Shown here one piece after another: positions 363 through 22,380 of a DNA stretch of 44,409 nt. This DNA comes from Candidatus Omnitrophota bacterium (GTDB lineage Bacteria > Omnitrophota > Gorgyraeia > B26-G9), in the NCBI GenBank assembly GCA_016213925.1, contig JACQZH010000056.1:1-44409 (forward strand). The letters are read 5' to 3'. The notes under the pieces are model-generated. The model was not told the origin of the DNA and searched no databases. It saw nothing but the letters and a program-made list of their open reading frames with translations. Within the stretch, counting starts at the first letter, position 1. Each line of letters starts with the position of its first letter. A program made the position numbers and the translations under genes.

Positions 363-1292
363 ATGAATCAATTAATTAAACTAACTGCAATTATACTATT
401 TCAGGCATTTATTTTATTCTGCAGCCAGTCCATTGGAGCGGAACGGCTAGGATTGTGCTTTTCATTCCGAGGGGCTTTACTTGGTATTTCTCGGGGATTC
501 GGGAGTTCTTTACAAAGACAACTGCAGGATAGCAGTACTTTATCTCCGGTAATTAATGTGAATTCAAAAACCTTTGCCGTATTTTTTAAATCTGCTTTTA
601 AGAGCAAAGATACTTATTTGGAGATTTCTCAACAGCCGAAAAATTCAAAAACCTCTGTTGTTGTGGTTCAAGGGGATAGTGAACTGCTGGACAGCAAAGA
701 TGTAAGGGGTATCGAAGCAATAATCGCGTCTTGCCTTGCAGTCGCTGGTGTAAATATAAAAACAGGCGAACGTTTCGCAGCACATTTTTTAGCTGCCGGT
801 GATTACGGACAGGTCAGTGGACAGGATAGGCAAACAGTAAAAGCTGAATATATAGAAAAAGTGTTTAATAGTAGTAAGGCTAAAGGTAAGGATATTATCG
901 GTAAAATGAAAGAAAATCCTGAAAATTGGAAAATTTTAGTTGCGGCTTCAGAAAATATCATTGATAATTTAAGCCCTCTTTACAAAATAAGCTATGAGGA
1001 ATTAAGAGGATATCTTATATATTGCATCGGAATAAGCAGGGAGAATATTTTGGTTGATGCAGAAACTATCAGCAAAAAAATTATTGTTAGAGCTAACGGC
1101 AGAATAACAATAATTCCTTTTAGCTATGCTGATGAAAAAAATGACGGGTATTTAAGTATCGCTAGGCAAAAGGAATATGATCTTAATAGGCAGCTGCCTG
1201 GAAATGGGCTTTCTGATTTCTCTTTGGCTCTGAAAGCAGAGGCGCATTCGCTAATCTTTGAACAATACGCGTTAATATCCCAGGCGATTTAA
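363..1292 (+). CDS. two-ended-tag family protein with a CheD-like Cys/His segment
   Basis: A 309-residue protein of unknown function. It begins with the shared leader (MNQLIKLTAIILFQAF), carries the LSP box at residues 60-62 and ends in ISQAI, so it is the first member of the tagged family. Compared with the others, about 25 extra residues lie between leader and box. Residues 119-145 read like the active-site region of the deamidase CheD: a small-residue turn, Cys124, then 16 residues, then His141. This C-to-H spacing matches CheD as I know it. That likeness is weak and is inference only; no chemotaxis genes are nearby. The start is the only ATG before the leader, and no Shine-Dalgarno site is visible. 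Confidence 0.75.
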   Translation: MNQLIKLTAIILFQAFILFCSQSIGAERLGLCFSFRGALLGISRGFGSSLQRQLQDSSTLSPVINVNSKTFAVFFKSAFKSKDTYLEISQQPKNSKTSVVVVQGDSELLDSKDVRGIEAIIASCLAVAGVNIKTGERFAAHFLAAGDYGQVSGQDRQTVKAEYIEKVFNSSKAKGKDIIGKMKENPENWKILVAASENIIDNLSPLYKISYEELRGYLIYCIGISRENILVDAETISKKIIVRANGRITIIPFSYADEKNDGYLSIARQKEYDLNRQLPGNGLSDFSLALKAEAHSLIFEQYALISQAI

Positions 1293-1424
1293 AGGCAGCT
1301 TTTAACAAAATCAGTTTTATGTTTACTAATAAGCATTGGTTCTGATAAAATATAGCAGTAGAGAACCGAAATATATTCGCTTTTAAAGTGTATGATTTTT
1401 AACTAACTGATTCTGGAGTTTTTT

Positions 1425-2195
1425 TTGAAAAAGTTTATTATACCCGTATTTATCTTAAGTCTATTAGTTTTTTCCGCAGTTAATGCGTATGCTTATACCT
1501 GTAGTGAGGCAATGAATCCGATAATAAAATCTATTCTCGCGGAAGATTATTATAAAGCACTGGATGAGTGCTATGTTCTTGAGAAAAAATCTACGGCTGA
1601 TCTTAAAGGAGAGATCTTTTTTACTCAAGGGGTCTGTTTGATGGGCGTGGGGGAATATGAACAGGCGCGCGAAGTTTTTAAAAAAGCGCTTAACTATGCC
1701 CGCGGAGAGCTTTCTACTGAAGTATACATTAGTATAGCGGATACGTATTTCCAGGGATACGATTATGATAAGGCGGTCAATATTTATGAACAGCTTTTGA
1801 ATTCAGGCACAAACAATGATTATCAGGCGATGCTTTATTTTAAAATAGGCAAAGCGTATCAAAAAAAAAGCGAGTGGACAAAATCAGGTTATTATTTTGA
1901 TAAGCTCAAAAACCAATTCCCGCGAAGTTTCGAAACACATCTGGCCCAAGCGGCAACTGTGGCGGGTAATTTTTTTACCATACAGGTCGGGTGTTTCAGT
2001 TCAAACCAGAATGCCCAGAAGCTTTATCAGGAATTAAAAACAAAAGGTTATGAAGCCTATATTACGCCTTTTGAATCCCGCGGAAAAACTCTATACCGGG
2101 TAAGAGTGGGAGAGTTTGTTTCCAGAGTGGCTGCCGAGTATACGGAAAAGGAACTAAGAGCAAGAGAAAACCTGCCGACGCATATATTCCCGTAA
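1425..2195 (+). CDS. exported TPR and SPOR domain protein
   Basis: 256 residues. A TTG start follows a weak GGAG site and gives a clean signal peptide (MKKFIIPVFILSLLVFSAVNAYA). Residues about 60-170 form three to four TPR units, with patterns such as EQAREVFKKALNYA and KAVNIYEQLL. Residues about 182-245 are a SPOR domain (FTIQVGCFSSNQNAQKLYQE and YRVRVGEF). SPOR domains bind denuded septal peptidoglycan, so a periplasmic cell-envelope or division role is likely. It lacks both the LSP box and the terminal QAI tail, so it is not part of the tagged family although it sits among its members. Confidence 0.85.
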   Translation: MKKFIIPVFILSLLVFSAVNAYAYTCSEAMNPIIKSILAEDYYKALDECYVLEKKSTADLKGEIFFTQGVCLMGVGEYEQAREVFKKALNYARGELSTEVYISIADTYFQGYDYDKAVNIYEQLLNSGTNNDYQAMLYFKIGKAYQKKSEWTKSGYYFDKLKNQFPRSFETHLAQAATVAGNFFTIQVGCFSSNQNAQKLYQELKTKGYEAYITPFESRGKTLYRVRVGEFVSRVAAEYTEKELRARENLPTHIFP

Positions 2196-2208
2196 CGAAA
2201 AGTAGAGG

Positions 2209-2666
2209 GTAGAAAGTAGCAAGTAGCAAGAAAATGATGAAAAACGTAAGAATACAGAAGACAAGAAAGTGGAAAACAGCGAGATGGACAAAAAATCGAT
2301 AAAATGCATAGAAGATTTTGATGTTTATCGAAAAGCGGTCAAAGTATTTAATGATTTTTTAGAATATGACCTTGTTGTTTTACAAAAAAGTTTTATTGGC
2401 CGGACATTGGCGGCAAATCAGTTAAGATGTCTAGATTCTATCTGTGCTAACATGGAAGAAGGTTATGAACGGAAGTCAGGAAATGATATAAAGAATTTTT
2501 TCAGGATGTCCAAAGGTTCAGCAGGAGAAGCTCGTGGAAGATATAAAAGGTTAAGTAAGGTATTGCCGCAGAATGTAATAGATAACCGTGTAAAAGAGTT
2601 GCATGAGATAAGGGCAATGTTGTCATCACTAATTTTAAAATGGAAATAGTTCTTTCTACTTTCTAC
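2209..2666. repeat. inverted repeats flanking a four-helix-bundle gene (IVS-like unit)
   Basis: An exact 11-bp inverted repeat (GTAGAAAGTAG at 2209-2219, CTACTTTCTAC at 2656-2666) brackets the four-helix-bundle gene. Inverted termini around a gene of this family are known from 23S rRNA intervening sequences. A related unit without a gene lies at 18719-18774. That it is mobile is inference. Confidence 0.4.
2284..2649 (+). CDS. four-helix-bundle protein (S23/IVS family)
   Basis: 121 residues from the ATG at 2284; a GTG at 2269 would add five residues. The family signature is visible: DFDVYRKAVKVF at the start, the central RCLDSICANMEEGYER segment and the FFRMSKGSAGEARGRYKRL helix. These small proteins are found as ORFs in 23S rRNA intervening sequences and as stand-alone genes, and their biochemical function is unknown. 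It lies between inverted repeats and just upstream of miaA. A second, more divergent copy is at 40363-40842. Confidence 0.8.
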   Translation: MDKKSIKCIEDFDVYRKAVKVFNDFLEYDLVVLQKSFIGRTLAANQLRCLDSICANMEEGYERKSGNDIKNFFRMSKGSAGEARGRYKRLSKVLPQNVIDNRVKELHEIRAMLSSLILKWK

Positions 2667-2686
2667 ATTCGACTATCTACTGTTAT

Positions 2687-3607
2687 ATGAATAAACCTTT
2701 AGTTATATTTCTCGTCGGGCCGACGGCAAGCGGAAAATCGGATATTGCTTTGGAGCTTGCGGTTTTGATCAATGGCGAAATAATTTCCGCTGATTCTATG
2801 CAGGTGTACCGCGGTATGGATATCCTAAGCGCGAAGCCTGAACAGCGGATGAGAGAAAAAATACCGCATCATCTTATCGATTGCCTTGATGCCAACGAAG
2901 AGTACAGCGCGGCAGTTTTCCGGGAACGCGCTTTAAAGCAGATAGAAGATATCCATAAGCGCGATAAAATACCACTTATAGCCGGAGGCACTGGCCTGTA
3001 TGTAAAAACACTCGCGCGCGGAATTTTTTCGGATAAGGGAAAAGACGAGCAGTTAAGAAAAGACCTTGCTAAAGAGCTAAAAGAAAAAGGAAAAGAGCAA
3101 TTGTACGCGCGTTTGAAATTACTTGATCCTGCTTCTGCGGAAAAAATCCATCCTAATGATACGCGCCGTATTATCCGGGCTTTGGAAGTTTATGAGGTTA
3201 ATCAGGTGCCCTTGTCAGCGCTGAAAAACAATAAAGAGGGCATGGAGACCCTTTATACGCTTAAGATGTTTGCCGTTGAATGGCAGCGTTCTATATTGTA
3301 TCAACGGATTGAAACGCGCATCGATCAGATGCTTGAGCAGGGGCTGGTTGAAGAGGTTAAAAGGCTAAAGGATAAACAACTTAGCCATACCGCGGAACAT
3401 GCCCTGGGAATAAAGCAGATATCAGCTTATCTAAAAGAAGAGTGCTCTCTGGAACAAGCTGTTAACTTTCTAAAAAGGGATACTCGCCGCTTTGCCAAAC
3501 GCCAGATGACGTGGTTTAGGGCGGATAAAGGTATTGTCTGGATTAGCGCGGATGATGATAAATCCGCGTTTGAAATTGCGAAAGAAATACAGGGGAAATT
3601 GAGCTGA
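2687..3607 (+). CDS. miaA: tRNA dimethylallyltransferase
   Basis: 306 residues, the normal length. MiaA transfers a dimethylallyl group to N6 of A37 in tRNAs that read UNN codons. The P-loop is at the start (LVGPTASGKSDIA), followed by EIISADSMQVYRGMDI, which binds the base, then the HHLID motif, the AGGTGLYVKTL segment and the C-terminal RRFAKRQMTWFR tRNA-binding motif. All usual catalytic features are present. It is a housekeeping gene in the middle of the tagged cluster and carries no tag at either end. The upstream region is repeat-derived and shows no clear Shine-Dalgarno site. Confidence 0.95.
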   Translation: MNKPLVIFLVGPTASGKSDIALELAVLINGEIISADSMQVYRGMDILSAKPEQRMREKIPHHLIDCLDANEEYSAAVFRERALKQIEDIHKRDKIPLIAGGTGLYVKTLARGIFSDKGKDEQLRKDLAKELKEKGKEQLYARLKLLDPASAEKIHPNDTRRIIRALEVYEVNQVPLSALKNNKEGMETLYTLKMFAVEWQRSILYQRIETRIDQMLEQGLVEEVKRLKDKQLSHTAEHALGIKQISAYLKEECSLEQAVNFLKRDTRRFAKRQMTWFRADKGIVWISADDDKSAFEIAKEIQGKLS

Positions 3608-3614
3608 ATCCTGT

Positions 3615-3643
3615 TTGCGGAAGAAAAAAAATTATGGTATACT
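3615..3643 (+). promoter_or_regulatory. sigma70-type promoter, extended -10
   Basis: TTGCGG (about 3615), 17-nt spacing, then TATACT at 3638-3643 with the TGG extension. It lies 58 bp before the 99-residue tagged mini-gene, and its -10 block resembles those near 165 and 4147. Confidence 0.45.
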
Positions 3644-3700: not shown

Positions 3701-4000
3701 ATGAAAAACAAATTTCATGTACTTACAATAGTAATAGTAAACATTTTTTTATTTTCAAACCTGGCTTTTTGTATGCAGTTGGCTTTGCCGGTGAATTTTC
3801 CTGTGAATGCGATGTTTGAGGATAATTCTTCCTGCATAAGCGAAAAGCACAGTGGTTTTTTGTGTAAGTCCATATCAGATGCTAATCAGGATTGTAACTT
3901 GTCATCAGTTATAAATGATATTGCTCCGATTCAGATCAAACCCATTGAATTTGATAAAAATCAAATTCAAATCGACAGGAAACTGCGTTCTACGATTTAG
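3701..4000 (+). CDS. minimal member of the two-ended-tag family
   Basis: 99 residues. There is a hydrophobic leader (HVLTIVIVNIFLFSNLAFC). Residues 73-84, DIAPIQIKPIEF, line up with the LSPAITIKAKEF box of the next gene, and the protein ends 15 residues later in LRSTI. It therefore has leader, box and tail with no cargo domain between box and tail. It may be a remnant left by cargo loss or a real small exported protein. It has its own promoter-like sequence but no strong Shine-Dalgarno site. Confidence 0.5.
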   Translation: MKNKFHVLTIVIVNIFLFSNLAFCMQLALPVNFPVNAMFEDNSSCISEKHSGFLCKSISDANQDCNLSSVINDIAPIQIKPIEFDKNQIQIDRKLRSTI

Positions 4001-4351: not shown

Positions 4352-5314
4352 ATGAATAAACTAATAAAAATAATCTCAATTATATTGCTTCAGGTGTTTT
4401 TACTAATGCCTGCCCAGGCTTTTTCTGTATCAGAAGATAGTTCTGATACGCTTTCTCCTGCGATTACCATCAAGGCTAAAGAGTTTCAGGCAGCGGTTTT
4501 TAACAACTATTCAAACCGGAATTTAATAGGCAATCAATCCGGCCGTTTACAGGTGGAAGATGGAATTGAAAACCCTTTAGAAAGGATAGAGAGGTTTTAT
4601 GAAGGAGTTGCCAATAACGGCTGGGGTGAAAATAAGAATTTTTCGCTTTGGGGAGCTATGCCGGAATTGGTTTTATATTTAGTACAAAGAATAAAAGCGA
4701 AAAAGATTCTTTCATGCGGTATTGGTTTGGCTGAGATGGAAAGACGTCTTAGCCTTAATAATGATGTTACTTGTATTGATAATGTCCCGGGATTGGTTGA
4801 AAAAGCAAAGGAAAACGGTTTGAACGCGTTTTTAGGAGATGCCAATGATTTAAGCGGTTTTGCGGATAATGAATTTGACCTGATAATATTTCCTTTTTCG
4901 ATTGCGCATGTTAATGATATTGTTTCTGTATGCGAACAGGCAAAAAGAATTTTAAAGGATAATGGCGAAATCCTGATTATAAGCCAGAGCCCTGCCAACG
5001 GAAATACGGTGGCGCATAGCAGATTATACGGTTATACCCTTTATCCAGTTGACAGGCTGAAGCAGTTTGTTAAACAGGCAGGCCTTTTTATCGAGTACTT
5101 AATCGATAACCTAATCTTAATCGGAGACAATGAGCCAAAAAAGATAAAAGTAAATTATATTTTAGCTTCAAAAGCGAAAATCGACAAAGACAGCGTTAAT
5201 CGAACGCTTATTCCCAGCTATGGCAATAATAGTTATCAGAGGGATAATTTTGTCAAGCTTCAGATAATTAAACAAATAATAACTGCGAATGAATTGATTA
5301 ATAGCGCGATATAA
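4352..5314 (+). CDS. two-ended-tag family, SAM-dependent methyltransferase cargo
   Basis: 320 residues from the ATG at 4352. An upstream in-frame ATG at 4208 would lie inside repeat sequence and would bury the leader. The shared leader is MNKLIKIISIILLQVF, the LSP box is at 34-36 and the end is INSAI. Residues about 115-225 form a class I methyltransferase core: motif I ILSCGIGLAE at 119-128, an acidic residue at Asp143 after strand 2, LGDAND at 161-166 and DLIIF at 176-180. The substrate is unknown. A SAM-dependent enzyme behind an export-like leader is odd because SAM is a cytoplasmic cofactor. Confidence 0.8.
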   Translation: MNKLIKIISIILLQVFLLMPAQAFSVSEDSSDTLSPAITIKAKEFQAAVFNNYSNRNLIGNQSGRLQVEDGIENPLERIERFYEGVANNGWGENKNFSLWGAMPELVLYLVQRIKAKKILSCGIGLAEMERRLSLNNDVTCIDNVPGLVEKAKENGLNAFLGDANDLSGFADNEFDLIIFPFSIAHVNDIVSVCEQAKRILKDNGEILIISQSPANGNTVAHSRLYGYTLYPVDRLKQFVKQAGLFIEYLIDNLILIGDNEPKKIKVNYILASKAKIDKDSVNRTLIPSYGNNSYQRDNFVKLQIIKQIITANELINSAI

Positions 5315-5544: not shown

Positions 5545-8500
5545 ATGAAAAAAATATTAAAAATAATTTCAATAATATTGATCCAGGCGTTTTTGTTTCA
5601 GATTTTGGAAGGAAACGCAAACAGCGCTGTTTTAACTTTGACTGCGGAAGATATGCTTTCTCCTGCACTGAATCTTACCGTTGAGTCAGTCAAAAATATT
5701 TTTACGCGTTCTGCTCCGGGAAAAACTCAAGCGGTTGATTTAGATGCGTTTATTAGAGAAGTTGTTGGAGATAATTCTCTGGAAGATTCGCTTAGCGTGT
5801 TATCTACTGAATTAATAGCTGCTTCTGCTAAAAAAGATGATGCCTGGAGGGATTTAGGGCAGCGCGGGATTGAGTCGATTATGAAAGGAGAAATTCCCGA
5901 GGGAAGAAAAAGCTTAGTTAGCGCATTGGAATCAGGCAGGCAATCAGCGGCAGAATGTTTTGGTGAAGCTTTATTTAAAAAAGGATTGGAAGAATACAGG
6001 CAGAATGAACTAGAAAAAGCAAAAATTCTGTTGGAACTTTCCTTATTGTTTACGCAAAAAGAGATTAGTGGCGCACTCACAAAAAAATCAATTGAAATTA
6101 GACAGGAGAGAATTCCTTTTATATTGTGTAATTACGGGACATTGCTGATAACGATCGCCAAAGAATCAGGGGGCCAATCTTCTGCCGATGCCCTGCGGCA
6201 AAAAGGGCTTGAATCCTTAAAAACAGCTTATGATATGACTGTTCCGGGAAGCCGCGTAAGAGCGATTGTTGCTACGGATTTTGGGACAGTATATCTTAAG
6301 TTTGAGAATATGGCGCAAGCTGAACGTTATTTACTCGAAGCGCATGATATGGCTTTCCGGTTTAGCATGATACAAATCCTTCCGCTGCTTACTTTCAATA
6401 TGGGGTTAATATATCATAAGAAACGCGAATTAGCGCAGGCTGAAAAATTTTTCAAGCGGGCAATGGAATACAATACGCACAGTTTGCAATCTTTACTTAT
6501 GCTGGTAAGAATTTATATGGAGACTCAACAAGTGGATAAGGTAATACAGTTGCTTGAGCCAAGAATAGGACGTTTTAAGGATAAGTCTTTTAAAGCTGAA
6601 GCGCTGGCGAATTTGGGTAATGCCTATCGCCTGAACGGCGATCCTGATAAAGCGTTAAGATGTTATGAGCAGGGTGTTGTTTTGGCGAAAGAAATAGGCA
6701 ATATAAATTTGGAAATTGAGCTTGAATTTATTAGTAAAGGCAAAATCTTCCTTAGCCTTAAAGAATACCGGCACGCTATAGAGAGTTATGTCAGAGGGCT
6801 TAATGAAGCGTTGTGGCGTTTAGGGGTTATTGAAGAAGGGGATAGGCGGAAAAACACTTTGAGCTCACGTACATTGCGTGCTTTACAGGAATTGGCAAAA
6901 AATAGAAAAGAAAAAAATCCAGCCTTGTTAAATACAGTTTTTAAAACGATAACGGGCGCGGCTGCCAGTTATTTTGCTGCCGGCGCTACCGGACAGGCGC
7001 AGCTGCTTTTTAAATTGGCATTGGATTTTGTCCAGGATGAAAAAGAAATATCCCGGTTGTATTTTAATCTCGCAGTTATCGACTTATCGGAGATCGAAGA
7101 TAAAAAAGTACCGCCTCGTCAGGAAAGGTTGGTTATTTCCAATGTGCTTTCTTTATTAAAAAAAGCAGTGGAAAAAGATCCTGGTTTTGGCGAGGCTTTG
7201 GCTTCTATGGGAGGGATTTATTATGAGCGGTTCAATAATTACGATAAGGCGATGGAGATGTGGGAGCGCGCGGCCGCGGCAAATGATAGCGCGTTGAAAG
7301 TGGCATTGCATAATCTGATGGTTGTGCATTTTTGGAAATTTTATAAAGAAAAAGATGAAAAATTTCTGCGCCAGGCAATGGAAGAATTTACGCAGGTAGT
7401 AAAAGGATACGGGGAGTATGGGGAAATATATTATGCTTTATTCAGTACGGTTAAAGATAAGAAGACTATTATTATGATATGGGAGTATCTGCTTGAGCAA
7501 GAACAGGATGTTGTAAAGCGGTTTTGCGCTGCTTTTCATATTCAGCGCGATTTTAATAAACATCTCTGGCTAAGCGTGCTTAGAGATATCTATAAACAGA
7601 AAGATACAGAAAAAAAACGTAACTTTGCGGAAAACGCATTGGCGTTACTGGGATTGCTGGGAGATGAATATAGTTTTCAATTTATAAAGAAGAAGATTAA
7701 ATGGGAACTTTCACAGTATAGAGAAAAGGGGAATAAAAAACATATTAATAATGTTATCGGCTGGATGGGCTGTTTGTCCGGGTTTAGGGATAATACGGTT
7801 ATTGAATATTTAAGGGAGTTGGCAGGCCATGAATTGCTAAAGAAAAAGGAAAAAACACAAGAGGAGATAAGAGAGGTTATTGAAGTAATAGAGGAAAGGC
7901 AAGAAGCGTTTGTCTACTGGAAGAATAGCCTGGAAATAGAATTAGAGAAACGGAAAAAAGACGCGCGGAATTTATTTATCTTTTTAGAAGATGATGTTTT
8001 TGATCGTTGCTGGCAGGAATGGGTAGACAATGTCTGGCGTGTGGATTTAAGCGCGGGATTAGAAAAATGGGACTATTCTTATTATTTATCCGCTTTTGAA
8101 GTGGCAAGATATAAAGCGGTTTGGCATTTGCCAGAGAATTTAGTTAGGGCTGAATTAGGTAGAGCCAGGGAAACGGGAGTAAGTTCAGTTAAGGAATTGG
8201 AAGATCGGTTTAGAAAAGTAAAAACTCTTGCGGTTTTAAGAATGCAGCCAAATTCTGAAAGCTTGGAAAGTGTATTTGGAAAAGAATTAGCGGATCGCGT
8301 AATAAGATGGGTATCAGAAGAAAATTTATCCGGTTTTCAGATTAAGGCAATAAAAGTGTTAAGAATATTAGCGGCTGAATATCTTCAAAGTTTGGGGCAG
8401 GAAACGGAAGTCCCTGATTGGCTGGTGGACGAATGTTTTAAAAAAGCTAAACAAGAGGGGTTGAAGAGTGTAAAAAGTTTATTGGATGAATATTTTCGTA

Positions 8501-9552: not shown

Positions 9553-9596
9553 ATTAGCTTATTAGTTCTTAAGTTCATGAGTAGAGAGAACCGAAG

Positions 9597-9738
9597 AGAT
9601 GACATTTATGACGTTAGAGACGTGAATGACGCGAGGATGAAAAGCTAAAAGGTTATTAAGTTACAAAGTCACAAGGACGCAAGGCCACCTGTAAAAAGTT
9701 TTTAGCCTGAAGCGTGAGGCTGCAGCGTTTATAAATTT
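9597..9738 (+). repeat. modular repeat leader, copy 3
   Basis: It shares GACGTTAGAGACGTGAATGACG, the AAAAGCTAAAAGGTTATTAAGT segment, the CACAAGG run and the GTTTTTAGCCTGAAGC block with copy 2, again ending in TATAAATTTATG at the start codon. The first tandem block of copy 2 is missing here. Confidence 0.65.
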
Positions 9739-13807: not shown

Positions 13808-15139
13808 ATGAAAAGACTATTAAAATTAACTTTAATTTCCTCAATTCTATTAGTTTTGATGCTAAATTATTTTTTTGTGTCAGAATCGGAGTTTTTACAT
13901 AATATCTCTATGGTAAATCAAACGGTATTATCTCCATCTGTGCAGATTATTAATAAAGAATTTCAGGATACATTTAAGATACTTCCCCTCCAACCGGAGA
14001 AAAACAAAAAAGGTATTTCGGCTGTTTTGCAAAACATTATAGACAGTCCGGAGTTATTGAAATTAGTACAGGAAGGGAATTTAACTGCGCGCAGTTACAG
14101 GAGAGGATGTGGCTTAAGTATAAATCTTGTCCGAAACTATTTAAGTAGGCTTGTAAAAGAAGGATATCTAATAAGAGAAGGGTATCCTCCTGAAGGATAC
14201 AAGTATGGGTTTTCTAAAATGGGCACACAATATGCAGAAAGGTTATTGGCTATAAGATTAGTGCAAAGAGATTTTCAAATGCAGATGAAAAATCTCTTTA
14301 ACGGCAAAGGTGGTGTTATTCAGCCAAAACCTCGTACAATTTGTTATTATTGCTCAGGCAGGGATATAAAGAGTTTAATGGAAGTTATAGAAGCGAATCC
14401 GTCTGTGGGAAACGTAGTTATGGTGGATAAAAGGAAAGAACAAATGCGTTTGCTAAAACAAGAATTGAAATCTGTATTTGATAGGTATGAACAAGTTTCC
14501 AGGAATGAATTTAATTGTTATAAAAAAAACAGGAAAATAAGGTTAAAATTTTATTTAGATGATTTTGTAAATATTAAGCGTTCTTTTTTGCCGTCTGGAA
14601 GTGTTATATATATATCAAAATTGCCTGGTAAAAATGGAAGCCTTTCATATGAAACGTCATTCTTCTATGCTAAGTTTATATCCAATATGGCTGTTGGTGA
14701 TTATCTTTATGTCCAGGATGCGCGGTTACCGTTTAGAAAGATATCTGTTGCTTTAGCTGGATTGGAAGAAGTTGCTATCCCTGGGATACAAAAAGGAAAG
14801 ATTGTTTTGCAGAAACATCCAGATGAGGATTTTGCTAAAAATCAATGGGTTGAGAAAGGATGGAGAATATATTTAAATACTCGCAAGTATCAATTAACTT
14901 CGATTTATACTTTGATGGAAATAGATAATGCTTTATACCGATTATATGTTAGCACTGCCAGCCAGCCGGATAAATTGGTTACTAATGGATATTATACATT
15001 ACCAGCTAAAAAATGGGGAAATATAGCTTTTTCGGAACTTGATTATCTTTTAGCTAATGCTGGAGAAGAAATAACGCGGGATGTAAATAGAATTAAAGCA
15101 GGAATAGAAATAAGCGGAATGGTCGGACAAGCGATATAA
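13808..15139 (+). CDS. two-ended-tag family, winged-helix plus Rossmann-like cargo
   Basis: 443 residues. The leader is MKRLLKLTLISSILLVLML and lacks the Gln seen in most others. The LSP box is at 41-43 with the following QIINKEF, and the tail is MVGQAI. Residues about 85-145 look like a winged helix: a recognition-type helix LSINLVRNYLSRLVKEG and a wing EGYPPEGYKYGFSKMG. Residues about 172-290 look like a degenerate Rossmann or methyltransferase fold (ICYYCSGRD, then VGNVVMVDKR). The typical glycine-rich SAM loop is not obvious. A DNA-binding-type domain behind an export-like leader is unexpected. Confidence 0.72.
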   Translation: MKRLLKLTLISSILLVLMLNYFFVSESEFLHNISMVNQTVLSPSVQIINKEFQDTFKILPLQPEKNKKGISAVLQNIIDSPELLKLVQEGNLTARSYRRGCGLSINLVRNYLSRLVKEGYLIREGYPPEGYKYGFSKMGTQYAERLLAIRLVQRDFQMQMKNLFNGKGGVIQPKPRTICYYCSGRDIKSLMEVIEANPSVGNVVMVDKRKEQMRLLKQELKSVFDRYEQVSRNEFNCYKKNRKIRLKFYLDDFVNIKRSFLPSGSVIYISKLPGKNGSLSYETSFFYAKFISNMAVGDYLYVQDARLPFRKISVALAGLEEVAIPGIQKGKIVLQKHPDEDFAKNQWVEKGWRIYLNTRKYQLTSIYTLMEIDNALYRLYVSTASQPDKLVTNGYYTLPAKKWGNIAFSELDYLLANAGEEITRDVNRIKAGIEISGMVGQAI

Positions 15140-15267
15140 AAAGATTCCAGATTGAAAAAGACAGAAGGATAAGCGATAAAATTAAAAGTTAAAAATAAAT
15201 CTAACTGCGAATAGGGAGAAACGAATAATGCGTAGCATTTAACAGGGTACGCTTAACGCAAATAACG

Positions 15268-16773
15268 ATGAAGCATTTAGTTGAACTGATCATAATAATT
15301 TTAATTTGTTATTTTTCTGGAGTGGCTTCGGTTTATGCTGCAATGTATAAACCAACTGCCAGTCTTTCTCCCCGCATGTGTCTATCCAGTGAAGGGATTA
15401 GGGATTTTTTTTCTAAAACCACGGCCGGCCATGCAGTAGAAGAAAAAGTTCCGTATTTTAGCATTGTCGGTTTTTTTCACCGATTAGGGAATGAAGGAGA
15501 GGAGTTTTCCAAAGAAGATAATTTTTGGGCGGGATTAATCGGCGCCGGAATACCTGGTTATAATAAAGAAAGGATTAGGCAGATTTATGGGCCGATTATA
15601 GAAGAGTTAAAGAAAAATTTAGGCAGTTTAAAAGGCAAAAAGATCCTTGAAATCGGAGCGGGTTATGGTGAACTGCTAGAGTATTTACAAAAAGAGGAAA
15701 AGGCAGTTGTCTATGGGCTTGAGCCGTCTTCTCTGTCTGTGCAGCTTGCTCTAAGGCGGGAAATTAATGTAAAGCAGGGGTATGTTAAAGATGTCCCCTG
15801 GTTTTTCTGTAAAATAAAATTTGATGCCGTAATCAGCGCTCGGGTTTTTGAGCCGATTGGGTTAAAGTCTGAGGCAAAGGCAAGAGAGATTATTAGAGAA
15901 ATAAATTTTTATCTAAAAGACGGTGGGGTGCATATCCACGCTACTGCCGATATCATTTACAAGAGGCCCTTTGAATTATTTTTTAGCCAGGATAGAGTGG
16001 AATATTTTACCCGTGAACAATTGATTGATTCGATGTTTAACCATTTAGTGGTTGTTAAGGAAAAAAGTTCAACGCGTAAGGATAATCAGCTTCTTTTAAC
16101 TGCTGCAGCAGCGGATAGAATGCCGAAATCTTGGAAGATAACGCGGTCTCGGGGCATAACAATCGAAGTAGAAGATAATGGGCGGATAAGTTCCTGTAAG
16201 TTTAGTCTTGATTCGATACGTAGAAATAAAGAAGACTGGTTTGATACTGAAGGCATAAATTTAGATGTTCAAAAAATAGTGGATATATATGCATTGGGTA
16301 TCTCTAAAGATAGAAGGGTAACTTGGAAATATGCGGCCAGCAAAGATGATCTGCCGGTTAAAAATATCCTTATCACGCAACCGGACATTTCATTTTGGAG
16401 GATGTTTTATTTTTTAGCTAAGCAAAAATCAAAGTTTATTGCCTGGGTGAATGAAAATCCGATTATTGTTATCAGGTTCAATGAGAAGTATTACTGTATT
16501 GCGGGCAATCACAGGCTGTTATATTATCGGATGATGAATATAGAACAAATCCAATGCCAAATTATTAATGTAAGAACAAATGATTTATTTTTTAGGACAG
16601 AGTTCGAAAAAATTTTAGAAGAACAGGTGGCTAAAGTTAGGGATTTATTTGGGCGAAAAGATATTGATGCTCTTCTTGTTAATTTTTTTAGGAAATTGAC
16701 CCCGTTTGTTGAGATAACACTTAAAAAGCAGTTAAGCTTTGATGGAATTAGGTTTGTTGAGCAAGCGATTTGA
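15268..16773 (+). CDS. two-ended-tag family, methyltransferase plus ParB-like cargo
   Basis: 501 residues. The leader is MKHLVELIIIILICYFSG, the LSP box is at 33-35 and the tail is RFVEQAI. Residues about 105-260 form a class I methyltransferase with a well-kept motif I (ILEIGAGYGE at 126-135), acidic Glu152 after strand 2, and FDAVISARVFEPIG further on. The C-terminal part (about 345-435) carries GNHRLLYYRMM near residue 413, resembling the ParB/sulfiredoxin box that in ParB binds CTP. The combination suggests a nucleotide- or metabolite-handling enzyme; the substrate is unknown. The repeat leader modules of its upstream neighbours are absent here. Confidence 0.75.
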   Translation: MKHLVELIIIILICYFSGVASVYAAMYKPTASLSPRMCLSSEGIRDFFSKTTAGHAVEEKVPYFSIVGFFHRLGNEGEEFSKEDNFWAGLIGAGIPGYNKERIRQIYGPIIEELKKNLGSLKGKKILEIGAGYGELLEYLQKEEKAVVYGLEPSSLSVQLALRREINVKQGYVKDVPWFFCKIKFDAVISARVFEPIGLKSEAKAREIIREINFYLKDGGVHIHATADIIYKRPFELFFSQDRVEYFTREQLIDSMFNHLVVVKEKSSTRKDNQLLLTAAAADRMPKSWKITRSRGITIEVEDNGRISSCKFSLDSIRRNKEDWFDTEGINLDVQKIVDIYALGISKDRRVTWKYAASKDDLPVKNILITQPDISFWRMFYFLAKQKSKFIAWVNENPIIVIRFNEKYYCIAGNHRLLYYRMMNIEQIQCQIINVRTNDLFFRTEFEKILEEQVAKVRDLFGRKDIDALLVNFFRKLTPFVEITLKKQLSFDGIRFVEQAI

Positions 16774-16927: not shown

Positions 16928-18697
16928 ATGAAAAAAACACTAAAAATAACTTCAATAAGACTAATTCAGTTGGTTTTATTATTAGTGACTGGGTTTATTT
17001 ATACGGCAGATGTTTGTTCTGCGCAGGAAGCCATAGAGGCTCTTTCTCCTTGGCTGCATATAAATGATAAATTAGTAAAAGATGGTTTTTTTCTTTCGAA
17101 ATTATTTTTGCCGATTGTTGATATGGTATATAAAATCAGGTTAAACAAAGATAATTATAATGAACTTCCAATAGTTATCTCATATTGGAAAAATGGAGGC
17201 GGCGGTATTAGTGTTAATTTCGAAGTGCATTTTAAGCATGATAAGCCCGGTATACTGCATGCTATTTTCGCTGCGCTTAGCCAAAAGGATACGGGAGGAA
17301 ACTTAGTCACCCATGAGGTAAATGTTAACTGGTTTGAACTTTTAAATACTGAAAGAGAATGGATATTAAAATTAAGTTGCGAAGTAAAAGATTTCTATCG
17401 GCTAAAACGTATTGTGAGAGAATTGGATATGAATATGAGGGGAATAAGCCCAAAAAGTCCATTCGAGAATGGGTATAGAGTAAATTATGTTGTTGAATTT
17501 GAGTTAGAAAGACCGGAGACTCTTCCCCAGGTTACGGAGTTTTTCGCCGACGAAGAACAAAATATTAATATTCTTTCTTTTTTAACGCCAAAGTTTGTTG
17601 CTGAAGGGCAAGATTTATCAAAATTTATTTTTGAAATTGAAATACCAGAAGATAACCCAGCAAAGATGTTTAGGAACGTTAAGATGCCGTTATCCAAAAG
17701 GGAAAAAGAGGAATATTATTTAAATTTCATCAGGGATTCTCTTTCTATAATCACCGGGTGCAGGTTATCTTGCGTAAAGATTACTAAAGGAACGATCGTA
17801 GACAGAACATTGCAAAAAATGATTGAAGATATAACTTGGCGGGGAGAGAAAGAAGAATTAATGGGAATTTTATCTGTAAATAAAAATACGATTAGGCAGG
17901 CGTTGGAAGTTATTGCCAGGAAAAATTTAGGCCGCGCAAGAAAAAACAAAACTGCTCCCTATATTTCTCACCAGATAGACATAGCCAAGAATATAGACGC
18001 GGTATTTAATCTTTTTACACCGGAGATTCTTAATTATCTTTCAGGATATATGCAGCATCCGGCGGTTACGATATTGACGGCGATTATCCTCCATGATGCT
18101 GTTGAGGACAGGGATATTTCCGAGGGAGATTTAAGAGAACAATTCGGAGAAGATGTATATGGGATAGTCATGCTGCTTACTAAAAATAGAGGAGATAAAG
18201 AAATAAAGTACTATGAAAAATTGAGTTCGCGCAAAGATATCGTTGCTTTGGTTTCCCAACTCGTAAAAATTGCCGATAAGCATCACAATTTAAGCACTTT
18301 AAAAGGAGTGAACGATGCAACTAAACTTAGAACATTCTTTTCCTGCTTAGAAGCATTCATCCCTGAATTTATTGATAAGATTGATTTAACAAAGATAGAG
18401 GATAGCGGATTGCGTTTAGTTTTTAATCGGGCAATAAAGGTTATAAAAAAGAAGATTGTAGAGTCAGGTAAAGAACTTGAACTTTTGGATGAAAACGGCA
18501 GGATTGATGGAGGGCAGTTTAAAATTTATGCTGAAAGAGAAAATATTAAATCCGGGATAACCATTTACCAGAACGTAATTAATAGGATGCGGGATGATGT
18601 GGAAACCGCTTCTGGCAGTAATCGTGATGACAAGAAGATTCTTAAACCATTAGAAAAATTATTAGAGAAAGAAGTGTTGTTAGAACAGGCGATATAA
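16928..18697 (+). CDS. two-ended-tag family, SpoT-like HD hydrolase with ACT-like repeats
   Basis: 589 residues. The leader is MKKTLKITSIRLIQLVLLLV, the LSP box is at 39-41 and the tail is LLEQAI. Residues about 95-175 and 183-245 look like two ACT-type domains (KHDKPGILHAIFAAL; ERPETLPQVTEFF). Residues about 343-460 match the (p)ppGpp hydrolase HD domain of RelA/SpoT: His348, His389-Asp390, Glu393-Asp394 in LHDAVEDR, and Asp450 in VKIADKHHN. All metal ligands and the catalytic ED pair are kept. No synthetase or TGS domain is present, and the order (ACT before HD) is reversed compared with Rel/SpoT. Hydrolysis of ppGpp or a related nucleotide is likely, but an exported location would make the substrate a puzzle. 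Confidence 0.8.
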   Translation: MKKTLKITSIRLIQLVLLLVTGFIYTADVCSAQEAIEALSPWLHINDKLVKDGFFLSKLFLPIVDMVYKIRLNKDNYNELPIVISYWKNGGGGISVNFEVHFKHDKPGILHAIFAALSQKDTGGNLVTHEVNVNWFELLNTEREWILKLSCEVKDFYRLKRIVRELDMNMRGISPKSPFENGYRVNYVVEFELERPETLPQVTEFFADEEQNINILSFLTPKFVAEGQDLSKFIFEIEIPEDNPAKMFRNVKMPLSKREKEEYYLNFIRDSLSIITGCRLSCVKITKGTIVDRTLQKMIEDITWRGEKEELMGILSVNKNTIRQALEVIARKNLGRARKNKTAPYISHQIDIAKNIDAVFNLFTPEILNYLSGYMQHPAVTILTAIILHDAVEDRDISEGDLREQFGEDVYGIVMLLTKNRGDKEIKYYEKLSSRKDIVALVSQLVKIADKHHNLSTLKGVNDATKLRTFFSCLEAFIPEFIDKIDLTKIEDSGLRLVFNRAIKVIKKKIVESGKELELLDENGRIDGGQFKIYAERENIKSGITIYQNVINRMRDDVETASGSNRDDKKILKPLEKLLEKEVLLEQAI

Positions 18698-18789: not shown

Positions 18790-21700
18790 ATGATTAAAAG
18801 ACTATTAAAACTAACTTCAATTATATTGATCCAGTCGTTTTTGTTAATGAATATTGCCTGGGCCGGAGAAAATAAAGGCACAGATTGTTTTGAAAATAAT
18901 TATTTATCTCCTAGTGTTAGGATAGATAATAATCAATTTCAGCAGTTTTATTCTGTTTTCTGCGCAAACTCAAAGCCAGAAGCCTTACTTTTTGACGATT
19001 CAGTAAATTCTCCTTTGCATATATCCAGAGATGAAGATATTCAACAGATAAGACAAGGAGGTAGTTCAGGTTTACAAGAAAGGAAATATCCTAAAGTAAT
19101 CTTGATTAATGCCAATCATCGTAGTTCAGTAAGAAGTATTAAGCCTTTAGGCATAGCCAGAATCAGCGCGTACCTTAAACAGAATAAAGTTGATACTGAA
19201 TTTGTTGATGCTAACAGGGATAGTTTGACTGCGCAGGAAGTTGCCGGACAGGTAATTTCTATCAGAAAAAATTATAAAGGAAAGCTTGTCTTGGGGGTAA
19301 GTTTATTCCCGGTAGATACGGAATTCTTGTCGGCATTTTTAAGGGCATTACCGGCAGATATTAAACAAGATAAAAATTTATCTATTTGCGCGGGAGGATA
19401 CCTGCCTACAATGTCACGGCTTGATTTTTTGGATAAATTCCCTGAAATTGATTTTATTGTAGTAGGAGAAGGGGAAGTTCCTTTATTTAAAGCAGTGCAA
19501 GCGATTGCGGATGAAAAACCGCTTAGAGGCATAAATAATATTATTTACCGGGAATCAGGCGGCAGTATTATTACAAATCCGCAGCGCCTTTTAACCACGG
19601 AGGAATTAGACAGTTTACCGGCCCCTGATTATGAGGCTATATTACAGGGTAAGAGGGACTTTTTTAGTAAAAAAGCATTATTGGATACAGCGCACGGCTG
19701 TCCCGGGCGCTGTACTTTTTGCGGGATACATGAGTTCTTTAATGAGGTCAAATCCGGAAATTTTGCTGTCGCGGGCGCGGCGCTAAAAAATCTTTTCTGG
19801 CGGCCCAGGTCAGCAAAAAGAGTTGTTGATGAAATTGAATATCTATATAATTCTTACGGGATACGAGGGTTTGATTTTGTAGATGATGATTTTGTTGGTA
19901 CTGACCCCAAACGCGCTAAGGCAATAGCCGAAGAGATTATCAGGCGCGGGCTTAAAATAAGTTTTTGGATACTTACCAGGTCTGATTCAGTAAGCGGTAA
20001 TGAAGAAGTATTTGTGGAATTGAAGAAAGCCGGCTTAAAACAGGTCTTTATCGGCGTAGAAAGTAATGATGCTAAACAGCTTAAGTATTATGGTAAGGCT
20101 ATAACTCCTGAAATCAACCAGCATGCAATTGAAATTCTGCAGCGCTTAGGGATAGGCATGCGCATAGGATTTATTAATTTCTATAAAAGGAGTACGCTTG
20201 AACAAATCAGAAATAATACCGCGTTTATTGAAAAATATAATTTGCAGCCCTCGATCCCGACGCCTGCAAACAAGCTGATGATTTATAAAGGCTCGGCATT
20301 ATATAAAAGATATAAAAGAGAAGGAGTGAAGCTTATCCCTGCCGGAGAGACGGAAAATGATTATGAGTTTGATGATGGTAATGTGGCATTGCTTTATGAT
20401 ATAACTAAGAAATTTGCCGATCAAACTTACCCATTGATGGTTTATTTTCGCGAATTACAGGAGATGCATTATTATTCTCCGTCTAAGCTCAACGAAACAG
20501 CGGATATGTATTTTAAAAGTCTAAAGATGATAGAGTTTAATTTTTTTAAAGAAGTGTTGGCGTTAGTTGAAGAGAAAGACGGTTTAAGCGCAGAAGCAAA
20601 GAAAAAGTTACTAAATATAGAGATAAACTATAATAAGCAGATTTACGCGTTAGTTAAAGAGTTTCAGGATAATTTACATGATGGATATAAAAATGAAATC
20701 CCGTTTTCAGAAAAGGCATTATTGGCTACGCCGCTTGATAAGTTGAAAAAGATTTTAGTCGAAGAAGGCGATTGCTGGGTTTTGCATGGTGATTTAAAAG
20801 GCTTGTTTGAAAGGAATTTTTACTATGGAAGAGAAGCTATGGATGTCTTGATAAATAAGATAGAGGAATCCTTAGGCGGTGCCTGTATGAGGCTTGTTTC
20901 GGATGAATTTATAGCACTTATTCCTAAAAAGCATAGTAAAGACGAAGTGCAAAAAATGACGGTTAGGCTTGTTGCCGAGGCGCTTGAATATTTTAAAGGC
21001 AGATATGGTTTCGCAGCCTTGGAAATAAATCAGGAAACCGGGAATTGGAAGGATGTATTAAAGAATACCCCGGGAGTCAGAGAAGTAGTAAATCTTCCTT
21101 TAACTGAAGCCGGTAATTCGCTGCGTAGAGATTTCCTTGTTTTTGAAAAAGAAGAGGGAATGACTTTAGAAGGTACTCTGGAAAATATTGTAACACAGGT
21201 TAATAACTCTTACGGCAAAGAGGTTATAACAGCAAAGATGGATTTGCCTATGCTTGCTCCATTATTACCGTTTGGAGGAGTCAGGGCGGCAAATGTTTCC
21301 AGCCCCAGGGAAGATCTTGATGAGTGGATCGAAGATATTCTCCGGGTGGCTTCTTATCTGCAGAATATAGCGAAACAAAATTTTCCTTTTGTTAAAATTG
21401 AAGAAGACGCGGTAATCCCTATGCCTGAAATAGAAAAAGAGGTTCCGGCGGATGAAAGGGATAGCTTAGTTAAAGAAGCGCAAGTGATTAGCAAGGATTT
21501 AAAAATAAGGCCGTATAAATTGGAAGAAATATATCCTGCTTATAAACGCAGTTCTTTATACGCGATCATCAGGGATCTTTTATTATATACCAATAGAAAC
21601 GTGGGTTTGTATAAGATTAACGTTGGATATACAGCTTCTGATTTGGCTTTGAGTAAGAAGATGTATGAGGCTAAAGGTAAAAGGCAGTTGAGATGGAGTG

Positions 21701-22380
21701 ATTATGGCAAGTATATATTCGGGCTTAAGTCTATTTGGGGCATATTCGGCCATAAGGCAGTAAATACGCTGATATTATATTTGAATATAGCGCTGAATAA
21801 AATTTTTACAGACCTTTCGCTAAATTATTCTGTTACGATTGTCCGCCAGCCGCCTGAAGTTTTCTATCTGGTTGTTGATACGGAAAAAGGGGAACCACTT
21901 CCTTTTGCAAGCGATATCCTTGCTAAGCTTGATGAATTGACTAGGGGTACGGCTGATTTTTTAAAAAGAAACTTTATGCTTGAGCCGGTGTTTGAGGCTT
22001 CTTTAGCAGAAGGTATCCGGGTAGGTAATGACGCGGCTAATTTAATAGAAGCGGTGGATTTTACTTCCCAAATAAGAGAAAGTGTACAAGGGATAAGCTC
22101 TCTTTTTAACTTAAACCGGGTGGATACTTATGAAGAAGTTATGGCAAATTATGCTCAAGCAAGCCGGGAATATTTAGAAGGCCAGGTAAAAATAAGAGAA
22201 AGGGCTAAATCGGAAATAGAAGAGCTGATAGGATCTGAAGAAGCTCTTTTAGCGGAGTATAGAAAATATCTTGCTGTTAACGCGCCTGCTTTACAGACAG
22301 AGGATATCCTAAGTATGATATTTGAAAAAGAAGATGCATTGCTTTTTGAGGAGTTAGAGCTTATTGGGCAAGCGATATAG
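18790..22380 (+). CDS. two-ended-tag family, B12-binding radical SAM cargo
   Basis: 1196 residues. The leader is MIKRLLKLTSIILIQSFLLM, the LSP box is at 39-41 and the tail is LIGQAI. Residues about 98-245 are a B12-binding-type domain (VILINANHRSS, KPLGIARISAYLK, IDFIVVGEGE). Residues about 295-500 are a radical SAM domain with the CxxxCxxC cluster motif at Cys304, Cys308 and Cys311 and GFDFVDDDF downstream. The family alters unactivated carbon centres, often by methylation, in the cytoplasm under reducing conditions. The C-terminal 600 residues are long helical segments with no motif I can name. An oxygen- and SAM-dependent Fe-S enzyme behind an export-like leader is the strongest sign that the leader may not mean simple export. 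Confidence 0.82.
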   Translation: MIKRLLKLTSIILIQSFLLMNIAWAGENKGTDCFENNYLSPSVRIDNNQFQQFYSVFCANSKPEALLFDDSVNSPLHISRDEDIQQIRQGGSSGLQERKYPKVILINANHRSSVRSIKPLGIARISAYLKQNKVDTEFVDANRDSLTAQEVAGQVISIRKNYKGKLVLGVSLFPVDTEFLSAFLRALPADIKQDKNLSICAGGYLPTMSRLDFLDKFPEIDFIVVGEGEVPLFKAVQAIADEKPLRGINNIIYRESGGSIITNPQRLLTTEELDSLPAPDYEAILQGKRDFFSKKALLDTAHGCPGRCTFCGIHEFFNEVKSGNFAVAGAALKNLFWRPRSAKRVVDEIEYLYNSYGIRGFDFVDDDFVGTDPKRAKAIAEEIIRRGLKISFWILTRSDSVSGNEEVFVELKKAGLKQVFIGVESNDAKQLKYYGKAITPEINQHAIEILQRLGIGMRIGFINFYKRSTLEQIRNNTAFIEKYNLQPSIPTPANKLMIYKGSALYKRYKREGVKLIPAGETENDYEFDDGNVALLYDITKKFADQTYPLMVYFRELQEMHYYSPSKLNETADMYFKSLKMIEFNFFKEVLALVEEKDGLSAEAKKKLLNIEINYNKQIYALVKEFQDNLHDGYKNEIPFSEKALLATPLDKLKKILVEEGDCWVLHGDLKGLFERNFYYGREAMDVLINKIEESLGGACMRLVSDEFIALIPKKHSKDEVQKMTVRLVAEALEYFKGRYGFAALEINQETGNWKDVLKNTPGVREVVNLPLTEAGNSLRRDFLVFEKEEGMTLEGTLENIVTQVNNSYGKEVITAKMDLPMLAPLLPFGGVRAANVSSPREDLDEWIEDILRVASYLQNIAKQNFPFVKIEEDAVIPMPEIEKEVPADERDSLVKEAQVISKDLKIRPYKLEEIYPAYKRSSLYAIIRDLLLYTNRNVGLYKINVGYTASDLALSKKMYEAKGKRQLRWSDYGKYIFGLKSIWGIFGHKAVNTLILYLNIALNKIFTDLSLNYSVTIVRQPPEVFYLVVDTEKGEPLPFASDILAKLDELTRGTADFLKRNFMLEPVFEASLAEGIRVGNDAANLIEAVDFTSQIRESVQGISSLFNLNRVDTYEEVMANYAQASREYLEGQVKIRERAKSEIEELIGSEEALLAEYRKYLAVNAPALQTEDILSMIFEKEDALLFEELELIGQAI

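Follow-up and report, generated by a model that had tools for sequence, protein, structure and literature searches.

In the LPXTG, PEP-CTERM, GlyGly-CTERM and MYXO-CTERM systems, served by sortase, exosortase, rhombosortase and myxosortase, respectively, dozens of proteins per genome combine a signal peptide with a short, conserved sequence at the opposite end. A comparable layout is described here for a contig of a Candidatus Omnitrophota bacterium (assembly GCA_016213925.1, contig JACQZH010000056.1, positions 1 to 44,409; this whole stretch of 44,409 nucleotides is called the window), which harbors an array of genes whose products share a hydrophobic leader, an L[SA]P box behind it and a C-terminal tail typified by QAI, placed around largely unrelated bodies (the cargo). 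In one family of uncultured Omnitrophota the tag marks dozens of proteins, many of them large. This two-ended tag is real, statistically overwhelming and lineage-specific, and it has the look of a protein address label not described so far: no description of the pair was found in the literature searched, most subscription papers and bioRxiv being outside its coverage.

The tag differs from the closest described systems in several respects. The sortase-type C-termini are tripartite, with a motif, a transmembrane helix and a basic cluster, while the tail found here has six residues without helix, basic tail or invariant cysteine, and an extra box stands behind the leader. From the attributes of that group an N-terminal signal peptide is present (leader logo with AWA|G, by eye), while the C-terminal helix and basic cluster are absent, the positions -16 to -7 being at background and the last residue an isoleucine. 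The YSIRK/GXXS signal peptides of Gram-positive surface proteins are also conserved in sequence and paired with a C-terminal sorting tag, but both motif and cell envelope differ and there is no LPXTG-like end in the proteins considered here. In the PEXEL/HT proteins of malaria parasites and the RxLR proteins of oomycetes a signal peptide is followed after some residues by a short motif (RxLxE or RxLR) on unrelated exported proteins, which is a like layout; here the box reads L[SA]Px[LIV]xI, neither RxLxE/Q/D nor RxLR appears in its logo, a C-terminal tag is present in addition, and the proteins are bacterial. The peroxisomal and glycosomal signals PTS1 (a bare C-terminal tripeptide-like signal) and PTS2 (an N-terminal one) occur on metabolic enzymes and serve import by cytosolic receptors without a Sec leader, in contrast to the present case with both tags on one protein, a Sec-type leader and cysteine-poor, export-like bodies.

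Substrates of the type II secretion system (T2SS) pass Sec first and then a secretin, as is proposed below. MYXO-CTERM and GlyGly-CTERM proteins depend on the T2SS downstream (PMC11980579), how it recruits its substrates has been called elusive (PMC7949064), and secretion of VesB requires the PDZ domain of EpsC (PMC12369372). No linear two-ended signal was found named for the T2SS in the literature searched. A Sec signal peptide (the leader) and secretins (12/12 family genomes) are both present here, the assignment to the T2SS being by synteny only. Type IX secretion also employs a signal peptide and a C-terminal determinant, albeit the latter is an immunoglobulin-like beta-sandwich domain (PMC11285876) instead of six residues: in the tagged proteins only the last 6 of 16 columns were conserved (n = 133), with no conserved C-terminal domain. 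The outer-membrane beta-signal, with a C-terminal Phe on a beta-barrel, did not apply either, since Phe was last in 1/133 and the recognisable cargo was of soluble enzyme type. An S41 protease as in the Prc/CtpA group was present in 11/12 family genomes, with a like frequency elsewhere in the class. None of the known families tested fits the two-ended tag. Giant open reading frames (ORFs) have been described in Omnitrophota (PMC10066038).

Coupling of the two ends

The eight genes and the mini-gene were located on the plus strand at the positions claimed in the preliminary description (Table 1), and their tails read as it had stated: QAI in the genes starting at 363, 9739, 13808, 15268, 16928 and 18790, SAI at 4352, RSI at 5545 and STI in the mini-gene at 3701. 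The L[SA]P box, which it had ascribed to all nine, was found in 8/8 genes, while the mini-gene has no clear box and reads LALPVNF at this position; the Gln said to be kept in most leader cores is retained in 6/8 genes, with no Gln in 13808 and a Cys in 15268.

Genes were called by a greedy longest-ORF procedure giving exact ends and approximate starts, and tails were counted in ORFs that do not run off a contig edge. In the window, a [QESRA][AS]I tail (a pattern outside which the STI of the mini-gene falls) was present in 8/8 ORFs with box and hydrophobic leader and in 0/24 others; in those stretches of this genome that were fetched outside the window it was present in 11/19 tagged ORFs and 8/271 others (p = 2e-10). 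QAI (13) and QSI (6) were the commonest C-terminal tripeptides among the 322 closed ORFs of at least 80 amino acids (aa) in the window and these stretches. A profile made from the nine window leaders alone gave 23 matches at E<=1 in this genome, i.e., the nine of the window and 14 elsewhere. A leader and box profile blind to the tails gave 42 matches at E<=0.1 in the whole genome, of which 33 end with [AS]I; 41 of them were mapped together (32 tailed), the 42nd being an enolase ORF, L038:5945-9121, with the tail DRSI. The nine without [AS]I comprised near variants (KPII, GRGI and GAV), one ORF at a contig edge, one with a run of N, two apparently split genes whose next ORFs end with VEQAI and LERSV, and two leader-only matches.

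The coupling was confirmed out of sample, with a leader and box score trained on the window's genome alone and applied to stretches of the 11 other genomes of its family: [AS]I ends were found in 94/110 closed ORFs with at least 12 bits (N-tagged) compared to 19/359 below this threshold (p = 1e-61). Five of the 16 untailed exceptions end with QAV, HSV, QAV, QSV and QSL; among the remaining eleven are short ORFs, an apparently split gene, L089:13039-14457, whose tail is carried by 14470-15174, and one or more false positives, namely the sensor-like protein at L154:11769 at the least. At the level of body clusters (68), 57 had a majority of [AS]I tails and 59 had any. The preliminary description had set beforehand an equally frequent tail in untagged proteins as the outcome speaking against it; the tail proved rare there, with Q[AS]I in 3/346 and [AS]I in 18/346 of the ORFs scoring below 4. 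Its expectation that leader and tail occur together was borne out within one family, in 11/12 genomes and 8 genera; in the twelfth genome, G007, only two N-tagged ORFs were fetched, both cut by contig ends.

Anatomy of the leader, box and tail

Logos were made from 133 proteins of the family stretches (ORFs of at least 150 aa scoring at least 16 bits). The leader reads [KR]-[IL]-[IT]-[SA]-x-[IL]-L-I-Q-A-F-L-[LV]-x-[DN]-[IF]-A-W-A, followed mostly by G or A, and the polar residue that had been noted in its core is typical of the whole set (Q 90, N 15, H 5). An IQAFL-type core was present in 98/154 tagged ORFs and in 0/63 other ORFs with a signal peptide: the leader is a signal peptide of specific sequence. 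A basic N-terminus and an AWA site are features of Sec signal peptides, and the leader looks like a predicted cleavable one of this kind (AWA|G, by eye), which makes the first end a likely export signal. After a linker of typically 10–18 residues follows the box, [TCY]-L-[SA]-P-x-[LIV]-[NQ]-I-[NSD]-x3-[FLI]-Q-x2-[FY].

The tail, [LFI]-[IV]-[EG]-Q-[AS]-I, is located at the extreme C-terminus, with 1.0–2.9 bits in columns -6 to -1 and background information (<=0.24 bits) in columns -16 to -7; the final residue is I in 118, V in 6 and F in 1 of the proteins. All three stop codons are in use behind the tails and the downstream nucleotides are not conserved. The tail is thus conserved at the protein level and not at the DNA level, and a DNA element at the gene ends, such as a recombination site, was unsupported. 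The codons of the tail were biased (76 genes; Ile as ATA in 49/76, Ala as GCA/GCG in 53/57), well above background. Across 156 thousand residues of tagged ORFs the tail motif stood at the very end in 56 cases and internally in 9; other ORFs had 12 copies in 224 thousand residues. Cleavage of the giant ORFs as polyproteins was rejected because the internal motifs are at the background rate; for example, a protein of 7410 aa with leader, LAP box and LVEQAI has the motif once internally and once terminally.

Cargo proteins

The preliminary description had called the middles unrelated, which is largely so: 75/167 tagged bodies have no tagged homologue in other sampled genomes, and in the window this is true for 7/8 (a homologue in another genome exists for one, a homologue restricted to its own genome for a second, and none for the remaining six). 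Related tagged proteins often have only one segment in common, indicating module swapping. In one six-protein group with 19–56% identity to its first member, the LSP, the Phe residues of the box and the last Ile were invariant. Relatives of one tagged group, searched in a named collection, were found at four loci, all in metagenome-assembled genomes of Candidatus Omnitrophota.

Pfam was scanned with 31 tagged or tail-bearing proteins of the window's genome (9 from the window and 22 others) and 98 from other genomes, for which the families listed were 25 of 50 and 25 of 47 matched. Many tagged proteins had no match. The recognisable domains were S-adenosylmethionine (SAM) methyltransferases, radical SAM with B12-binding, RelA/SpoT HD, helicases, GH77, glycogen debranching enzyme (GDE), alpha-amylase, PGM with ROK, enolase, pyruvate kinase, PPDK, PGK with a receiver domain, Carb_kinase, HATPase, GGDEF, helix-turn-helix families, Fic, and HEAT and TPR repeats. 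Such cargo is mainly of cytosol type, as far as its domains tell, with the exception of a LysM match in L039:11137-15984.

Canonical enolase and PGK were present in 12/12 genomes of the family, in a few cases as fragments at a contig edge. A large ORF with an additional enolase was found in 1/12 genomes: this is L038:5945-9121, which has box and tail and in which no in-frame leader was found. Its Enolase_C match lies ahead of the Enolase_N match, and a domain permutation is possible. Extra PGK in large ORFs was found in 4/12 genomes, and both tags were present on each of the two that were fetched (L156, L165). Catalytic residues, at positions that we presume to be the catalytic ones and compared by eye with solved structures, were retained in enolase, GH77 and most of PGK. 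Four tagged ORFs have kept the CxxxCxxC pattern, and seven have kept motif I of the methyltransferases. A structure search with an NDK-like tagged protein gave no match. The GAPDH domain Gp_dh_C matched only ORFs of 250–440 aa, above the cut-off in 10/12 genomes, and no large ORFs.

Export-like composition

Composition was compared in ORFs of at least 200 aa, leaving out untagged ORFs that end with [AS]I or are cut at the 5' edge, with signal-peptide and cytosol-like classes defined by crude rules of our own. The Cys content was 0.49% in tagged bodies compared to 1.40% in cytosol-like ORFs (p = 7e-31) and 0.62% in the remaining ORFs with a signal peptide, a roughly threefold depletion of the kind that exported proteins show. 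By a crude hydropathy rule, 113/154 tagged bodies lack a transmembrane segment. A composition classifier (cross-validated area under the curve 0.93) called 53% of the tagged bodies exported, as compared to 84% of other signal-peptide and 13% of cytosol-like ORFs; after removal of Cys from the classifier, the values were 38, 84 and 14%, respectively.

Distribution within the Omnitrophota

The leader profile matched 12/12 genomes of the window's family (f1) and 8/46 other genomes of the class. In a phylum sample of 384 genomes the leader and box profile matched 47, 10 from the family and 37 from outside, and among the matches listed the full model was reached in the family only: the other matches extended over at most 48 of 55 model positions, mostly 23–42, and most were on very long ORFs. 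In 11 stretches of other families 0/71 closed ORFs end with [AS]I. C-terminal ends were read for some of the 37 matching genomes outside the family. The leader-bearing giants read there lack both of the other elements, the box and the QAI end, which makes the two-ended pair look particular to the lineage. One such giant, L102, has aminotransferase, transketolase and alanine dehydrogenase domains, with neither box nor QAI tail.

Seven giants of another family, f29 (L254, L259, L267, L268, L275, L276 and L105), end with LQAA, LASA, LASA, LMAA, SSAA, RTAA and STKA, i.e., with [AS]A in 6/7 and L-x-[AS]-A in 4/7; the single other ORF with an [AS]A end among 42 closed records was a second record of an f29 giant. 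Five of the seven leaders were read or lay in the profile-matched frame, the N-termini of L275 and L276 not having been fetched. This post hoc observation on seven giants hints at -[AS]A as a second lineage-specific tail and may serve as a lead only. The giants of other families end variously, e.g., LWSV, LWGV, LTAL and LEGMV.

Genomic context

Tagged genes recur at fixed spots. Spot 1, which is that of the window, has the order miaB - SPOR/TPR - miaA - tagged genes - rsmA - pdxA - SurA/PpiC, several of these names resting on sequence patterns. At least one of its flanks was found in six genomes, and the two flanks together on a single stretch in four (G000, G002, G010, G011), with 1 to 7 tagged genes whose cargo is largely different between genomes.

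Spot 2 starts with an ATPase (Pfam AAA_22), which we take to be ExeA-like, followed by a GspC-like protein (T2SSC E 1.4e-4, below the cut-off), secretin A, secretin B, HD_5, a coiled coil, TPR, PGI, an extracytoplasmic function (ECF) sigma factor, an anti-sigma factor, the tagged genes and a presumably LexA-like gene. It is contiguous in G000, G006 and G010 and partial in G003 (from secretin B on, without the sigma pair) and G011 (from TPR/PGI to the tagged genes), so that in 4 genomes the secretin operon is followed by tagged genes, G011 being a fifth with the part from PGI to the tagged genes. From secretin B to the first tagged gene there are some 7–12 kb on the same strand. In a 19-row tree, secretins A and B form sister clades of the family, each supported by 100/100 and together by 93/91 against the nearest homologue of the class; according to this tree, the tandem duplication is specific to the family. 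It is seen in L222:2030-3808 and 9013-10827, with equivalents in L225, L227, L228, L230 and L231. The family averaged 7.6 secretin matches per genome (n = 12), as against 4.4 in genomes from the other families of its class (n = 22; p = 4e-5, or 0.005 when counted per Mb). In three mapped single-secretin loci of other families no ORFs ending with [AS]I were seen.

Other neighbors of the tagged genes were also recurrent. A protein with IQD[LI]HCN...VEGG adjoins them in L170:9932-11581, L087:9846-11141, L117:90-1580 and L173:85-1800, with no Pfam match over the cut-off, and giants of other families that bear the leader (L103, L105, L111) have a similar stretch, IQDAHCN, close to their N-terminus. 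PilZ proteins at 15–50 bp and PAS-HD_5 sensors at about 220–370 bp from tagged genes were found in several genera; together with GGDEF among the tagged proteins, the PilZ and HD_5 neighbors make a control by cyclic di-GMP possible.

The tagged array of the window

The features of the array are listed in Table 1. Gene 1 gave zero Pfam and NCBIfam matches, and no window tagged protein had an equivalog-level match in NCBIfam. Gene 8 also possesses a B12-binding-type domain with a match below its cut-off. The homologue of the mini-gene is L085:4854-5192 (112 aa, tail LRSAI), at the matching locus of another genus. A 23S_rRNA_IVP-family protein is encoded at 2269-2649, between the SPOR/TPR gene and miaA, and beyond the rsmA/ksgA-type flank follow a pdxA-like gene and a SurA/PpiC-type chaperone. 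The distal part of the window contains a CRISPR locus (34009-43731 and 43914-44409), presumably of type I-C, with a Cas3-type helicase, Csd1 (37013-39013), Cas7 (39010-40164), Cas1 and Cas2; its array of eight repeats with a spacing of 64–67 nt is at the contig end, and a BRO-N gene (41514-42347), lies between the effector genes and cas1, which looks unusual.

Table 1. Tagged genes, boxes, tails and flanks in the window, and neighbors of tagged genes at other loci
Feature	Position	Strand	Remarks
Tagged gene 1	363..1292	+	309 aa; leader at 363, late LSP box, tail LISQAI
LSP box of gene 1 (LSPVINVNSKTFAVFF)	540..587	+	late, at residue 60
Tail LISQAI of gene 1	1272..1289	+	
Flank, SPOR/TPR protein, untagged	1425..2195	+	recurrent hotspot flank, relatives in 6 genomes
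Flank, miaA (IPP transferase type)	2687..3607	+	named after relative L171; recurrent array flank, 6 genomes
Mini-gene	3701..4000	+	99 aa; leader, tail LRSTI, no clear LSP box
Tagged gene 2	4352..5314	+	320 aa; SAM methyltransferase domain, tail LINSAI
LSP box of gene 2	4451..4498	+	
Tail LINSAI of gene 2	5294..5311	+	
Tagged gene 3	5545..9552	+	1335 aa; TPR protein, tail LLERSI
LSP box of gene 3	5656..5703	+	
Tail LLERSI of gene 3	9532..9549	+	
Tagged gene 4	9739..13587	+	1282 aa; no confident domain, tail FVEQAI
LAP box of gene 4	9856..9903	+	
Tail FVEQAI of gene 4	13567..13584	+	
Tagged gene 5	13808..15139	+	443 aa; weak winged-helix match, tail MVGQAI
LSP box of gene 5	13928..13975	+	
Tail MVGQAI of gene 5	15119..15136	+	
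Tagged gene 6	15268..16773	+	501 aa; SAM methyltransferase domain, motif I retained (ILEIGAGYG), tail FVEQAI
LSP box of gene 6	15364..15411	+	
Tail FVEQAI of gene 6	16753..16770	+	
Tagged gene 7	16928..18697	+	589 aa; RelA/SpoT-type HD domain (under family cut-offs), tail LLEQAI
LSP box of gene 7	17042..17089	+	
Tail LLEQAI of gene 7	18677..18694	+	
Tagged gene 8	18790..22380	+	1196 aa; radical SAM, CxxxCxxC retained (CPGRCTFC), tail LIGQAI
LSP box of gene 8	18904..18951	+	
Tail LIGQAI of gene 8	22360..22377	+	
Flank, rsmA/ksgA-type methyltransferase	22476..23360	-	name from sequence pattern; opposite flank, 5 genomes
PilZ / PAS-HD_5 neighbors of tagged genes	L086:5562-5921, L087:3038-3433, L120:8213-10048		

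Proposed mechanism and alternatives

From the sequence elements, their coupling and the export-like cysteine content we infer a reader, a cleavage, an exit and a destination, which together would make up a lineage-specific, Sec-dependent, two-step code for export and sorting; this is proposed tentatively, our confidence in it being a little short of even. The dedicated signal peptide ([KR]xxIISxILIQAFLxxDIAWA) would direct passage through Sec and be cut after AWA, as suggested by its sequence and by the composition of the bodies. The mature protein would then display the box (L[SA]Px[LIV]xI x4 [FL]Qxx[FY]) about 10–18 residues past the leader core and, at its other end, the free hexapeptide [LFI][IV]xQ[AS]I. 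An extracytoplasmic receptor may dock both and so sort any fold: the rapid change of the cargo between frozen ends points to selection on the ends. The receptor would finally pass the cargo to an outer-membrane exit, for which the operon with the ExeA-like, GspC-like and tandem secretin genes is the best candidate by synteny and duplication, and the destination could be the cell surface or another cell. The cargo itself would be a rapidly changing set, a large part of it divergent versions of enzymes and regulators from the cytosol, inserted between the conserved ends at fixed spots.

Several observations weigh against this proposal. The composition of the tagged bodies is intermediate, which fits exported proteins of cytosolic ancestry without proving it, and radical SAM and other nucleotide-using enzymes would be odd outside the cytosol. 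Some motif residues of the tagged pyruvate kinase are lost, by eye at positions that we take to be those of the motifs. A complete exported glycolysis had to be rejected, because GAPDH is confined to the ORFs of 250–440 aa and absent from the large ones. No candidate was identified for the reader that the preliminary description had suggested (a sorting receptor, a protease or a degron system), and the PDZ_6 and S41 families are not expanded in the family. The ExeA-GspC-secretin core, with a single secretin, is also found in other families without the tag, and tagged genes are located at many loci, only one type of which is near the secretin operon, separated from it by about seven to nine genes. 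Since the secretin counts track one clade, the association may reflect a single event. Finally, the biased tail codons hint at inherited ends and, in combination with module swapping, suggest that inheritance explains a part of the pattern.

Taken further, this last point would mean that there is no reader at all and that the ends are merely inherited as cargo modules recombine into pre-existing tagged genes, to which the hotspots with fixed flanks would also correspond. We regard this as improbable: the ends stay invariant between homologues down to 19–26% identity while codons, stops and 3' flanks differ, the lack of conservation upstream of -6 is unexpected from descent alone, and leader, box and tail stay together across 8 genera. 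The same joint conservation of both ends, independent of the middle, would be expected if the hexapeptide docked on the LSP box of the next protein and the cargo polymerized end to end into a coat or network, an equally improbable arrangement in our estimate; AlphaFold models from single sequences of two window proteins (predicted local distance difference test scores 43 and 33) were too poor for judging either the fold or such an assembly. Ordinary Sec signal peptides combined with chance, in turn, would account for the signal-peptide form of the leader and for the leader-bearing giants of other families that lack box and tail, but are counted as refuted by the out-of-sample coupling and by the absence of the IQAFL-type core from other signal-peptide ORFs.

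Two further explanations retain the export step and give the tail, or both tags, another function. The tail might be a signal for processing or turnover, read after Sec export by a PDZ protease of the S41 (Prc/CtpA) type or by an HtrA-type one. Such proteases read a free hydrophobic C-terminus, PDZ_6 proteins occur in 12/12 family genomes besides the S41 proteases mentioned above, and the -[AS]A ends of f29 resemble the LAA-type ends of ssrA; yet neither family is expanded or special, S41 being usually single per genome in the wider class as well, a degron leaves the equally conserved box unexplained, and a terminal Ile over Ala or Val differs from the preference of the E. coli Tsp, which makes this explanation unlikely. 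Targeting to a closed lumen of the same cell (the periplasm or an intracytoplasmic organelle supplied with nucleotides, SAM and reductant), as an analogue of the two peroxisomal or glycosomal signals, would agree with the prominence of glucan and glycolytic cargo in the window's genome (GDE, GH77, PGM with ROK, enolase, pyruvate kinase and PPDK), with its often retained catalytic residues and with the canonical enolase and PGK being kept in addition. It is, however, quite unlikely: the pathway is incomplete without Gp_dh_C in large ORFs, the cargo varies by genus, as is evident from the large-ORF enolase and PGK, and an organelle of this family was not found mentioned in the literature searched, as far as the sources were available.

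A broader form of the export and sorting proposal would extend it to the phylum, where divergent cytosolic enzymes and regulators of 230 to >7000 residues may be exported, perhaps into a partner cell, through a dedicated receptor and a secretin machine that would read leader, box and bare C-terminal hexapeptide as a single address, with a tail particular to each family (QAI in f1 and -[AS]A in f29). Family-specific tails would imply that receptor and tail co-evolve as lock and key. This extension we consider doubtful.

Implications

If the code proposed for the window's family is real, a free C-terminus of six residues and a short box in the mature protein would suffice for addressing many folds, up to thousands of residues in length, for export from a cell of Gram-negative type. 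With at least 33 natural cargos in one genome, cargo recognition by a secretin system would become testable. The tag would also supply a simple rule for spotting such cargo in genomes whose giant proteins mostly have few annotated domains, and a handle on the output of host-associated Omnitrophota, which would then consist of cytosol-fold enzymes and DNA-binding regulators, and not of the classical secreted hydrolases.

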